A stretch of 33,782 nucleotides of DNA from an uncultured Clostridia bacterium (GTDB taxonomy: Bacteria > Bacillota > Clostridia > Oscillospirales > Oscillospiraceae): assembly GCA_947168005.1 (NCBI GenBank), contig CAMVKI010000006.1, forward strand, positions 1 to 33,782, written 5' to 3'. Each line of letters begins with the position of its first letter. The stretch's first letter is position 1. The notes below the pieces were generated by a model. The model saw nothing but the letters and a program-made list of their open reading frames with translations, had not been told where the DNA came from and did not search any database. Of the stretch, positions 3,034 to 7,325 are shown in pieces. The position numbers and the translations under genes were made by a program.

Positions 3034-3276
3034 ATAGGTGCGCCTGCGGCAACCCAGATCTTGGACTGGCTTATAGCTTATGGTGTCCGAGAGCTCATCA
3101 GCTGTGGCTCGTGTGGTGTGTTGGTTGATATTCCCGAAAACGCATTTTTGGTTCCTTACAAAGCGCTTAGAGACGAAGGAACTTCATATCACTACCTTCC
3201 GCCTGAACGGTTTGTTGAGGTTTCTGAAAAGGCGCGCTATGCCATTGAGAAAGAGCGTTTGTTGATAAATGATTGA
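3034..3276 (+). pseudogene. Remnant of a nucleoside phosphorylase (PNP/UDP family)
   Basis: In-frame IGAPAATQILDWLIAYGVRELISCGSCGVLVDIPENAFLVPYKALRDEGTSYHYLPPERFVEVSEKARYAIEKERLLIND resembles an internal segment of phosphorylases; a stop codon (TAG 3031-3033) directly precedes it and N- and C-terminal parts are absent. Confidence 0.7.
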
Positions 3277-3361
3277 AAAATCGGCATAAAACATACCAAA
3301 AGGCCCTCACACTGCCATCATCGGCGGCGGGGATAATACCAAAATAAACTCACAAAGGGTA

Positions 3362-3396
3362 TTGACGGCAAATAGTTTATAGTGTATAATATAAAC
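3362..3396 (+). promoter_or_regulatory. marR promoter with overlapping palindromic operator
   Basis: TTGACG (3362-3367), 17-nt spacer, TATAAT (3385-3390); palindrome gtttata-N8-tataaac (3375-3396) covers the spacer and -10. Confidence 0.75.
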
Positions 3397-3421
3397 AGTA
3401 ATTACGGAAAGGAGAAAAATC

Positions 3422-3868
3422 GTGAAATTACCATTAGATGAATCCCTTCCCGAATATGTGAATGATTCCATAGCTATTCTGGAAAAAATACTGACAAGCG
3501 ATAATTTCAGCGTCTTTGAAAGGATCACCCGGGTATCCAGAGGTGAGATTTTTGTACTAAAGATTCTATTGTTTAACAATGGTACATCAACGCCTACTGA
3601 GATCAGCGAGGCGATGAAGAGTACAAAGGGACGCATATCGGCCATATTGAATTCACTGGAGAAAAAGGGCTTCATTGGCCGGGAAATTGATAAAGACAAT
3701 CGTAGAAACATTATCGTGACGCTTTCAGATTCCGGCAGGGATTATGTGATGAAGGAACTCCTTGAATGCTACCGCATCGTGGCACATGTTTTTGAGGAGC
3801 TGGGAGAAAAGGATTCTAAAAAGTTTGTTGAACTGACGGAGCGGGTGTTTCATCTGATGAACGAATAA
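3422..3868 (+). CDS. MarR family transcriptional regulator
   Basis: 148 aa, GTG start; winged-helix motif GTSTPTEISEAMKSTKGRISAILNSLEKKGFIGREIDKDNRRNIIVTLSDSGRDYV. Confidence 0.85.
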   Translation: MKLPLDESLPEYVNDSIAILEKILTSDNFSVFERITRVSRGEIFVLKILLFNNGTSTPTEISEAMKSTKGRISAILNSLEKKGFIGREIDKDNRRNIIVTLSDSGRDYVMKELLECYRIVAHVFEELGEKDSKKFVELTERVFHLMNE

Positions 3869-3876
3869 AAAATCCA

Positions 3877-3900
3877 TTGCAGGCCGAAAAAGGCCTGCAA
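3877..3900. repeat. Perfect hairpin between marR and the aldo/keto reductase gene
   Basis: ttgcaggcc-gaaaaa-ggcctgcaa; followed by A tract on +, so T tract only on the - strand. Confidence 0.6.
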
Positions 3901-3962
3901 AAAATAGAACCCATTGTTAATAGGGTAAATAATAAACAGCAAAAACAAAGGAGAAAGATAAT

Positions 3963-4892
3963 ATGAGCAATTTTTCAAAGGACAACAGACCGGGCGGAAC
4001 CTACGTGATGGGCGGGAAAACGGTATCCCGGGTAGGATACGGCACCATGCAGCTGCCGAAACTGAAGGATGAAGCTAAGGCAAGGGCGGTGATCCGCAGA
4101 GCCTACGAGCTTGGCGTGAACCATTTTGACACAGCTGATTTTTATGAGGATGGATTCACAAACAGATGCCTGGCGGATGAAATCGGCAAGGAGAAGGATG
4201 CGGTAATCGTAACCAAGATCGGCGCAAAGCCCGGTAATGGCATTATGCCGATGATACCCGCGCAGAGGCCGGAGGAACTCAGACAGCACATAGAGGATAA
4301 TCTAAGGAGCCTTAAGACGGACCATCTGGGGATCGTCAATTTCCGCAGGATCGCACCGGGAACGTTTCCCTTAAAACCGAGCCAGAAGGTGAATTTTGAC
4401 GACCAGATGGCGGAGCTTATTAAAATGCGTGACGAGGGGAAGATAGAGGCGATCGGGCTTTCCACGGTCAGTCTGAAAGAACTGCAGAGTGCATTGCCTG
4501 CCGGTATTGTCTGTGTCCAGAATCAGTACAATATTACATCGCGCAGCCAGGAAAGCATACTGGATCTGTGCAGAAAAGAAGGAATTGCATGGGTGCCATA
4601 TTTTCCTCTTGGCGGTGGTCTGCCCGGTTCCGCGAAGGTGACAGAAGACAAAACAGTACAGGCTGTCGCAAAAGAGATGGGGCTGTCACCGGTCCAAGTG
4701 GGGCTGGCATGGATTCTGCAACACGCTGAAAATGCGCTCATCATTCCGGGAACTACATCGATCGGTCACCTGGAGCAGAATGTTGCGGTAGGCGATATCC
4801 GATTTGATGAAGACACGATGCGACGCCTCGACAGTGTTCCTCCGGCAAGAGGGATAGGGGCTATTATCAATCGCTTTATGTCAAGAAAGTGA
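3963..4892 (+). CDS. Aldo/keto reductase
   Basis: 309 aa; VSRVGYGTMQLP, NHFDTADFY, VTKIGAK, GIAWVPYFPLGGG, LIIPGTTSIGHLEQN motifs; RBS AAAGGAG. Confidence 0.9.
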   Translation: MSNFSKDNRPGGTYVMGGKTVSRVGYGTMQLPKLKDEAKARAVIRRAYELGVNHFDTADFYEDGFTNRCLADEIGKEKDAVIVTKIGAKPGNGIMPMIPAQRPEELRQHIEDNLRSLKTDHLGIVNFRRIAPGTFPLKPSQKVNFDDQMAELIKMRDEGKIEAIGLSTVSLKELQSALPAGIVCVQNQYNITSRSQESILDLCRKEGIAWVPYFPLGGGLPGSAKVTEDKTVQAVAKEMGLSPVQVGLAWILQHAENALIIPGTTSIGHLEQNVAVGDIRFDEDTMRRLDSVPPARGIGAIINRFMSRK

Positions 4893-4901
4893 GGGACAGA
4901 T

Positions 4902-5555
4902 ATGACACTGCAAGAGGCAATGAAAGCACGCCATATGGTGCGGAAATATACCGATAAAGCGATCCCGGCAGATATTGCGGCAAAGCTGAATGAGCGGGTA
5001 AAGCAGAACAATGAGCAGTATGGTCTTTCCATTAAGCTGATGATCAATGACGGCAGCGCTGTACCGGGTGTGATCAAGCTGATCCTTGCCAAAGGCGTGA
5101 ACAATTTCTTCATCATGGCGGGCCCCAAAGGATCGGATGAGCGCCTTGGATACTGCGGTGCAGATCTGATGCTCTACGCTCAGACACTTGGGCTTAACAC
5201 CTGGTGGGTCGGCGGCACCTATAACCGCAAGGGTGCGGCTGAGAAATCAGAAGGAGCAACTCCGGTTGGTATTATAGCCGTGGGTTACGGACAGACGCAG
5301 GGTGTACCGCATAAAACGAAAACGGCAGATGCGGTCAGTTCCTATGTTGGCGATGTTCCTGACTGGTTCAAAGAAGGCGTGGATGCCGCACTTCTTGCCC
5401 CGACAGCACTGGCAAAGCAGGCATTCATCTTGAAAGGTGAAGGCGGTACCGTGCATATCGACTGTGACAACGGAATCTTCAGCGGTGTGGATACCGGCCT
5501 TGTGAAATATCACTTTGAACTGGGTGCAGGCAAAGAAAACTTTGAGTGGGTGTGA
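4902..5555 (+). CDS. Nitroreductase family protein
   Basis: 217 aa; N-terminal MTLQEAMKARHMVRKYTDKAIP, GLNTWWVGGTYN, GIIAVGYG motifs. Confidence 0.85.
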   Translation: MTLQEAMKARHMVRKYTDKAIPADIAAKLNERVKQNNEQYGLSIKLMINDGSAVPGVIKLILAKGVNNFFIMAGPKGSDERLGYCGADLMLYAQTLGLNTWWVGGTYNRKGAAEKSEGATPVGIIAVGYGQTQGVPHKTKTADAVSSYVGDVPDWFKEGVDAALLAPTALAKQAFILKGEGGTVHIDCDNGIFSGVDTGLVKYHFELGAGKENFEWV

Positions 5556-5558
5556 TTT

Positions 5559-6260
5559 ATGGATGAACAGATCAGACAATTACAGCAAATGATCGATGAG
5601 AGCCGTTTCACATTGGTCATTACCGGAGCGGGTATTTCCGTTGCATCCGGTATTCCAAGCATGCACGGTTTGAATCTGGCGGAGACGCTGCAGTTTGCCT
5701 CCACAACCGTGCTGAAGATGGCGCCGGAGCACTACTACAGGGTTGCCAGACATTCCTTTCTGGATGCCATATTCGAAAACGGTCCCAGCCTTTCGCATAA
5801 GAAGCTGGCGGAGCTGGAGAAAAAAGGTAAGGTACAGGGAATCATCACGACAAATCTGGATAACCTGCACAGCCTTGCCGGTTCAAAAAACGTGGCGGAG
5901 ATACAGGGTAGCTTCGCGGTCAATGCCTGTTTGAAATGCGGGAAGCGGAACTACGATGTGAATATCTGGAATCAGGGGAAAGCCCCGAGATGCGAATGCG
6001 GAGGGCTCTATGCCTGCTGGCCGGTCTATGCTCATGTCGGCCTTTATAATGATGATGTCCCAAAAGCGCAGGAATGGGCACGAAAGGCAGAATTGGTTAT
6101 TGTGGTTGGTGCGATCGGCAACTATGGCGGCGTGTACTGGAACCACATCAGATCCTCCGCGAAGATCGTGCAGATCAATCCCACCCATACACAATTCGAT
6201 TCCTGTTCCTTCCTGAACATCCGGAAAAAATGCGATGAAGTATTCGCGGAATTGGAGTAA
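5559..6260 (+). CDS. Sir2-family (sirtuin) protein with altered catalytic motifs
   Basis: 233 aa; GAGISVASGIP, TTNLDNLHSLAGSKNV, two CxxC-type motifs. The usual LHG is replaced by IQG (codon CAG 5904-5906) and the usual PDFR by PSMH (5655-5666). Confidence 0.85.
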   Translation: MDEQIRQLQQMIDESRFTLVITGAGISVASGIPSMHGLNLAETLQFASTTVLKMAPEHYYRVARHSFLDAIFENGPSLSHKKLAELEKKGKVQGIITTNLDNLHSLAGSKNVAEIQGSFAVNACLKCGKRNYDVNIWNQGKAPRCECGGLYACWPVYAHVGLYNDDVPKAQEWARKAELVIVVGAIGNYGGVYWNHIRSSAKIVQINPTHTQFDSCSFLNIRKKCDEVFAELE

Positions 6261-6263
6261 CCT

Positions 6264-6707
6264 ATGATTCGTTTAATCAAAGGAGACATCACGAAAATTA
6301 CGGATGTTGATGCAATCGTGAACGCTGCAAATAGAACACTTCTGGGTGGAGGCGGCGTCGATGGGGCAATCCACCGTGCTGCCGGTAAAGGATTGAGGGC
6401 AGAGTGCTTTAAGCTGCATGGATGTAAAACGGGCAACGCAAAAATCACAAAGGGTTATGATCTTCCCTGTAAATATGTGATCCATACGGTCGGGCCGAGA
6501 TGGAGAGACGGAACGCACGGAGAAGAAAGTCTGTTGCGATCTTGTTATCGCAATTCGCTTGAATTGGCGAAGAAAAACGGATGTGAAAGCGTCGCCTTCC
6601 CGCTGATTTCCTCCGGTGTTTACGGGTATCCGAAGGACCAGGCGATAAAGGTTGCCGTTGATGAAATCACCGACTTCCTACTGAAAGAAGATAACGCTCA
6701 CGGCTGA
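6264..6707 (+). CDS. Macrodomain protein (MacroD/YmdB type), probably 3'-truncated
   Basis: 147 aa; [57 protein letters not shown]. Native-looking sequence ends near FLLKED, then meets recombinase sequence on the opposite strand. Confidence 0.85.
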
Positions 6708-6988
6708 GATGGCCGAGTACCGTATCCTCATAGCAGCGTGAAATCAGCGTATCCAGATCGGCGATGCGTTTCTTCGCCTTTTCCAGGCGCTTTTTCTCAT
6801 CGTTGACGCTGGCCTGCCAGTCTGCCCGGCGGCAACGGAACCATTCTTCTTCAAAGCCTTCCACATCGCGCCGGACATATTCGTTGACTGCCTGGATCCG
6901 TTCCAGTACGATTTCCCGCAGAATGTCCTCACGGATATAGTGCGCGCCGCAGTCCCCGCGTCCGCTCTTGTATTTGGAGCAGACGTAC
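6690..6988 (-). pseudogene. Remnant of a large serine recombinase (C-terminal coiled-coil part)
   Basis: Reverse-strand text [96 protein letters not shown] resembles the distal part of transposon-type serine recombinases; no catalytic domain present. Confidence 0.75.
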
Positions 6989-6989
6989 C

Positions 6990-7325
6990 ACGGTCTATAT
7001 CGGCTACTGGTCCTTCGTGCTGATGGGCTTCCACCTGGGCCTCCACATCCCGGCCATGACGGCAGGGCTCAGATGGAGCGGCAAAGTCAGGACCGCTCTT
7101 TCACTGCTCTGCGCTGTCGCCGCTGGGCTGGGCTTCTGGCTGTTTGGGAAAAACGGCCTGCCGGACTACATGTTCTTCCGCACCCCCTTCGCCTTCCTGG
7201 ACTACGAGAAGGCGGCGGCGCTGGTCTTTGCCGAGAATCTGGCGATTCTGAGCGCCTTTGCCCTTCTGGGCGGCTGCGTCGCGGCGCTCTGCAAGGCGTT
7301 TGGCAGGCCCGGCCCGAGATTGTGA
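6990..7325 (+). pseudogene. 5'-truncated DUF4405-like membrane protein
   Basis: VYIGYWSFVLMGFHLGLHIPAM...GLPDYMFFRTPFAFLDYEKAAALVFAENLAIL; the N-terminal helices are missing and the frame joins the recombinase remnant. Confidence 0.65.

Follow-up and report, generated by a model that had tools for sequence, protein, structure and literature searches.

A 33,782-nucleotide stretch of DNA from an uncultured Clostridia bacterium (the window, by which we mean the whole stretch analyzed) encodes a sirtuin in which Gln116 stands in place of the catalytic histidine. Its gene is part of a mobile cassette found in gut bacteria. The protein belongs to a separate clade of Gln-sirtuins whose genes lie among redox enzymes and, at most loci, beside an ADP-ribosylhydrolase. 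We consider it probable that these genes specify a reversible ADP-ribosylation switch, with the sirtuin as writer, the macrodomain as eraser and a redox protein as partner, which would resemble the SirTM/Zn-Macro system of class M sirtuins and would have evolved separately from it.

Results

The Sirtuin of the Window Carries Glutamine at the Catalytic Position

The window's sirtuin scores 82.8 bits against Pfam SIR2 (cut-off 24), and its translation contains GAGISVASGIPSMHG, TTNLDNLH and VAEIQGS. The initial annotation had described a sirtuin with intact zinc-binding cysteines and the motifs EIQG, PSMHG and TTNLD, and both the open reading frame translation and the Pfam match bear this out; the four cysteines are C124, C127, C145 and C147. 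It had also placed Gln, encoded by CAG at 5904 to 5906, at the catalytic His position. In a 58-row alignment, Gln116 indeed shares its column with His116 of TmSir2 and Gln147 of the SpySirTM chain (Gln137 in the numbering of the published study). Because these three residues occupy one column, a catalytic His displaced to a neighboring position is ruled out; the alignment check that had been proposed for such a residue revealed no in-register adjacent His, and the Gln call stands. A sequencing error or a decaying gene is also ruled out, since Gln is found in all relatives that preserve the position and dN/dS for the gene is 0.09 to 0.12. Strong purifying selection extends over the sirtuin, nitroreductase and aldo/keto reductase (AKR) genes (dN/dS of 0.05 to 0.12).

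Across the clade, the catalytic residues Asn99 and Asp101, the AGS motif and the zinc cysteines are invariant, as is His104 in the clade alignment, and the DFR motif (lost in the window's sirtuin, which has PSMHG), the GTSLxV motif and the GE/EE segment ahead of the substrate channel are remodeled. On sequence grounds, this combination would fit NAD+ activation without classical deacylation. The AlphaFold model (mean pLDDT of 90.3) has the sirtuin fold; its closest PDB structures are those of Sir2Tm (TM scores of 0.76 to 0.83), and the SirTM structure 5a3a falls outside the top 50. With CobB/Sir2Tm (T. maritima, 1yc5) the protein shares the fold, the four zinc cysteines, the NAD+-binding Asn99/Asp101 motif with His104, and ∼30% identity, but the His of the canonical ELHG is Gln116, DFR is lost, GTSLxV is remodeled and the GE/EE segment is replaced. 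Full-length clade members score ∼88 to 123 bits against a canonical HMM and at most 24 bits against a SirTM HMM. Profile scores and fold both agree with the earlier view that the protein resembles canonical sirtuins more than SirTM.

The canonical fold and zinc site, together with canonical sirtuin–macrodomain neighbors in three genomes (G229, G268 and G306), would suit a deacylase of unusual chemistry, in which Gln works with another base and the macrodomain clears O-acyl-ADP-ribose. We regard this reading as very unlikely, as Sir2 enzymes without the His deacylate very poorly or not at all, and the DFR motif and acyl-peptide–binding GE/EE segment are altered here too. Moreover, SirTMs, which carry the same change, have no deacylase activity. 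Their system also offers a precedent for the proposed switch, since its macrodomain takes the ADP-ribose mark off again and two oxidoreductases are encoded in its operon (PMC4518038).

Table 1. Features of the sirtuin gene cluster in the window
Feature	Position	Strand	Basis
Sigma-70-type promoter, TTGACG-17-TATAAT	3362..3390	+	11/12 consensus matches
MarR-family winged-helix regulator, 148 aa	3422..3868	+	Pfam MarR, 1.1e-9
Aldo/keto reductase, 309 aa	3963..4892	+	Pfam Aldo_ket_red, 3e-53
TM1586-type nitroreductase (flavoenzyme family), 217 aa	4902..5555	+	Pfam TM1586_NiRdase, 4.4e-59
Sirtuin with Gln116 replacing the catalytic His, 233 aa	5559..6260	+	Pfam SIR2, 3.9e-23; alignment; tree; AlphaFold fold
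MacroD-type macrodomain, 147 aa, mosaic	6264..6707	+	Pfam Macro, 2.5e-49
Probable serine-recombinase C-terminal remnant	6690..7000	−	Minus-strand translation read by eye

The Gln-Sirtuins Form a Clade Distinct from Class M

When the Q/H column was excluded, the Gln-sirtuin clade was monophyletic at 100/100, and the SirTMs, including SpySirTM (5a3a), were separate at 100/99. In the main tree, a small His-bearing set (L151 to L154) joins SirTM beyond a 100/99 branch, in an analysis for which the tree program warns of long branches. Forcing the clade and SirTM together lowered the log-likelihood by ∼20, and the AU test of this joint grouping gave p = 0.0585, or 0.028 without the active-site columns. 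In the tree without those columns, a weakly supported branch (73/72) set the clade together with SirTM and the His-bearing set apart from the other sequences. A common grouping of the clade with SirTM is disfavored rather than excluded. Because SirTM joins other sirtuins, which bear His, the Gln most likely arose twice, and the sequences favor, without proving, two origins of QG. The initial annotation had suggested an intermediate or a separate non-deacylase branch; the 100/100 all-Gln clade fits the separate branch, but the placement of SirTM with L151 to L154 does not suggest that the clade bridges the canonical and class M groups.

All phylum sirtuins examined by alignment, class M and the clade aside, keep the His. 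Sequences L151 to L154, the nearest to SirTM, yet retain it (EVHGS/EIHGS) and possibly represent a pre-SirTM lineage. Six further sequences (L147, L148, L150, L155, L157 and L158) form a clade of short, His-bearing sirtuins (∼175 to 225 aa) with PTFxE or PGYD for PDFR; for two of them the alignment shows no second pair of zinc cysteines.

The clade resembles SirTM in the HG to QG change, with EIQG or EFQG in every member that preserves the position (L075_10231 is truncated before position 116, and L012 and L072_3 start past it), in TTN for TQN in most members, and, like SirTM/Zn-Macro, in an adjoining macrodomain gene and operon redox enzymes. In contrast to SirTM, the clade lacks the class M GVGx[NT]TP loop, which reads GVGxNTP or GVGHTTP in the SirTMs of the same alignment and GAxGxYG or GTxGxxx in the clade. 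At the column of Arg192, 19 of 20 members, that of the window among them, have no Arg; only L077_1811 does, within a stretch that aligns poorly. Clade sirtuins are also shorter (∼233 to 260 aa versus ∼300 aa), and their partner is either a PARG or a MacroD-type macrodomain that has neither the Cx4HxC Zn-loop nor the N-terminal helical bundle. SpySirTM depends on each of Gln137, Asn118 and Arg192, and the Q137H change abolishes its ADP-ribosylation activity (Rack 2015, PMC4518038). As Gln is kept and 19 of 20 members are without the Arg192 counterpart, the catalytic geometry of the clade may differ from that of SirTM.

We find it least credible of all that the Gln-sirtuins are divergent class M SirTMs. 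The shared HG to QG and TQN to TTN changes, the macrodomain next door and AU values that do not strongly reject a common grouping favor such a descent, but the low SirTM HMM scores, the separate, well-supported clades and the missing loop, Arg and Zn-Macro weigh against it; on the loop motif, Arg192, the Zn-Macro partner and tree position, we rejected membership of class M.

The window's own genome (G000) contains three kinds of sirtuin: a canonical ELHG sirtuin (C23, L090), a SirTM/Zn-Macro pair (C92, L083) and the Gln-sirtuin (C6). The pair at L083:4984–6748 is genuine, with TQGDYG, GVGYNTP and a zinc-loop macrodomain that scores 340.8 bits against NF003163. Since the metagenome-assembled genome (MAG) has a completeness of 84% and a contamination of 2.6%, co-residence of the three kinds in one genome is likely, not certain.

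The Sirtuin Gene Lies in a Five-Gene Cluster with a Mosaic Macrodomain Gene

Five closely spaced plus-strand genes make up the cluster, with the sirtuin gene in fourth place (Table 1). The promoter spacer and the bases after the promoter (GTTTATAGTGTATAATATAAAC) form an imperfect palindrome before marR, a candidate operator at which MarR would presumably act. Six promoter-like sites were found versus 4.3 expected by chance, and GTGTATA with the AT-rich repeat around it before marR is kept in six loci. The MarR gene is retained in L003 to L007, L010 and L012; L011 and L159, the latter a phage locus, have a different MarR-like gene. A short-chain dehydrogenase (SDR) takes the place of the AKR in L007, which is from Butyrivibrio sp. 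CB08. The nitroreductase gene adjoins the sirtuin gene in almost all close relatives and is missing from L006.

The macrodomain gene begins 3 bp past the sirtuin stop codon and was absent from the initial annotation, which had mentioned macrodomain pairing as a feature of SirTM. This holds for SirTM, but not as a SirTM-only trait, as macrodomain or PARG partners occur here too. The best PDB match is MACROD2 (4iqy, 1.1e-47). Like MACROD2 and YmdB, the window's macrodomain has the IS(S/T)GV loop, and NAAN, catalytic loop 1 and loop 2 are all present; unlike them, it is operon-linked to a Gln-sirtuin, mosaic and truncated. The Zn-Macro features (Cx4HxC loop, N-terminal helical bundle) are absent from it, with a classic GGGGVDG loop and no N-terminal extension, and its score against NF003163 is 145.6 bits (cut-off 272), versus 340.8 for the real Zn-Macro of the same genome.

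Relative to L003, positions 6264 to 6497 of the macrodomain gene are 98% identical and 6498 to 6689 are 51% identical. The product lacks the C terminus, the usual last ∼20 to 25 residues, and the gene runs into the probable recombinase remnant, part of which is 70 to 77% identical to dispersed sequences in genomes of the family. Full-length copies are present in L003, L004, L007 and L012. Because it is mosaic and short, the window's macrodomain may be nonfunctional, with the eraser lost, or may reflect a MAG assembly chimera at the mosaic point.

Flanking the cassette upstream, positions 3050 to 3280, read by eye, look like a truncated nucleoside phosphorylase, and a tRNA-Ser(cga) lies at 2813 to 2904. 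The open reading frames of 8926 to 33456 read as a pectin/uronate utilization region, with a large lyase-like protein bearing C-terminal SLH-like repeats, a pectinesterase, GH28- and GH105-like enzymes, KduI/KduD- and UxaA/UxaB-like proteins and sugar ABC transporters.

Related Loci Carry Tandem Gln-Sirtuins and Two Types of Hydrolase

An HMM of the close relatives identified members in 12 of 201 same-family genomes (1e-50). In a 398-genome phylum sample searched at 1e-40, no genome besides the window's was found, and 297 order genomes gave same-family matches only. Nine genomes (G122, G135, G195, G015, G026, G042, G152, G095 and G164) encode two to four Gln-sirtuins in tandem. The arrays usually begin with genes for an Rrf2 regulator, a nitroreductase and flavodoxin_4, followed by an EFQG sirtuin, then one or two of the EIQG type and a microbial PARG (PF10021); L071 and L072 depart from this order. 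All nine array PARGs keep the GG-x(n)-QEE catalytic signature of microbial PARG intact, and unlike other microbial PARGs they are placed within or at the end of the Gln-sirtuin arrays. After the PARG gene, a stand-alone AMP-binding (adenylation) enzyme and a GNAT-like ORF occur at L072:2922–5580, L073:9875–12564 and L079:4743–6678, and L072 and L073 have a further small ORF as well.

Counting both types, an ADP-ribosylhydrolase gene is present in the cluster at 18 of 23 assessable loci (nine MacroD-type, nine PARG), which include close relatives that are not mutually independent. As a baseline, counted from tables for macrodomains and not PARG, a macrodomain match lay within 1 kb of 3 of 86 PF02146 hits in the phylum sample. 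Since canonical His-sirtuins occasionally adjoin a macrodomain, linkage to a hydrolase is by itself weak evidence. Because the partners are of MacroD type and of PARG type, they show at least two separate pairings. A neighboring hydrolase gene is missing at L011, L080, L082 and L159.

Two sets of redox enzymes recur, AKR or SDR with the TM1586 nitroreductase, and flavodoxin_4 with a nitroreductase and Rrf2. GcvH-L, the only known SirTM target, others being unknown (Ariza 2024, PMC11490716), and LplA are both absent from the clade loci, a further difference from SirTM.

The Cassette Is Mobile

Loci with 59 to 97% identical sirtuins carry the labels Clostridia, Ruminococcus, Lachnospiraceae, Butyrivibrio, Solobacterium and, once, actinobacterium (MAG and isolate labels). 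The block at ∼3340 to 6498 is 93 to 96% identical to L003, L004 and L010, 89 to 90% to L006 and 84% to L005, and the sequence on either side is not common to the relatives. None of the 11 other same-genus genomes of the sample has the cassette; they encode a canonical sirtuin only, or none. Since the block is shared, the flanks are not and same-genus genomes are without it, sequence comparison points to recent horizontal spread, most of the taxon labels being MAG labels.

A search of IMG/VR revealed one true clade member, L159 (UViG_3300013830_000222), a phage contig that carries MarR, nitroreductase and Gln-sirtuin genes at 4903 to 6702. They sit between apparent tape-measure/distal-tail genes and a further tail gene, with holin- and endolysin-like ORFs downstream and no macrodomain at the locus. 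Carriage by plasmids was considered and dropped: tblastn matches were all below 60% identity and, among the matches listed, were named deacylases or unannotated. Annotated phages likewise gave only matches below 60% identity.

Such mobility would be expected of an ADP-ribosylating toxin with a macrodomain antitoxin (DarT/DarG-like logic) in a selfish or anti-phage cassette, a reading in keeping with 91 to 97% identical sirtuins in MAGs of several taxa, their absence from the other same-genus genomes tested and the copy carried as phage cargo. We nevertheless give it little weight, as L011, L080 and L159 have no hydrolase gene, the arrays have two to four sirtuins per single PARG, and the cassette includes metabolic enzymes and its own regulator.

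Discussion

We infer that the Gln-sirtuin is an ADP-ribosyltransferase, and its substrate and physiological role are likewise proposed from the data above. Asn99 and Asp101, both retained, would bind and open NAD+. Gln116 stands where the general base for conversion of the alkylimidate to O-acyl-ADP-ribose would be, and the ADP-ribose would instead be transferred to a partner protein, on an acidic or other side chain, from which the adjoining MacroD-type macrodomain, or the microbial PARG in the tandem-array relatives, would remove it. We think it probable that this partner is one of the operon's flavin/NAD(P)H redox proteins (nitroreductase, AKR or flavodoxin); to name the nitroreductase or flavodoxin as substrate is a guess. 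The recurrence of redox enzymes with MarR or Rrf2 regulators suggests a redox-stress switch: under MarR or Rrf2 control, the module would tune redox metabolism during electrophile, nitro-compound or oxidative stress. Several observations weigh against the proposal: the Arg192 counterpart is missing from nearly all members, GcvH-L and LplA are absent from the loci, four loci have no neighboring hydrolase, and the window's own macrodomain may be nonfunctional.

The same redox neighbors and regulators could instead serve an NAD+ glycohydrolase or a noncatalytic NAD+/ADP-ribose sensor that relays redox state. Such a Gln-sirtuin would bind NAD+ and may slowly release nicotinamide, with the macrodomain or PARG recycling ADP-ribose products. 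Loss of the general base and of the DFR and GTSLxV motifs agrees with this, as does the missing hydrolase at several loci. However, the catalytic Asn/Asp and zinc site are invariant, which is unusual in a pure sensor; selection fixes Gln specifically, with no drift at the position; and the neighboring hydrolases are, by family, erasers of protein ADP-ribose. We therefore take the sensor or glycohydrolase to be a serious but unlikely alternative to the writer–eraser switch.

Whether the writer–eraser switch represents a second class of ADP-ribosylating sirtuins, with an independent His to Gln change, MacroD or PARG erasers, flavin/NAD(P)H-enzyme substrates and arrays in which two to four specialized Gln-sirtuins share one PARG, is a question on which we judge the evidence evenly balanced. 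A literature search, with most subscription papers outside reach, found no description of the clade or of a PARG- or nitroreductase-linked sirtuin.

If the proposal is true, the His to Gln change that would convert a deacylase into an ADP-ribosyltransferase occurred on two or more occasions, and on every one the sirtuin came to be paired with redox enzymes and an ADP-ribosylhydrolase. This would provide a natural replicate for how the switch works and whether the Gln matters. As systems without a lipoylated GcvH-L carrier, those of the clade could reveal other targets of such sirtuins.
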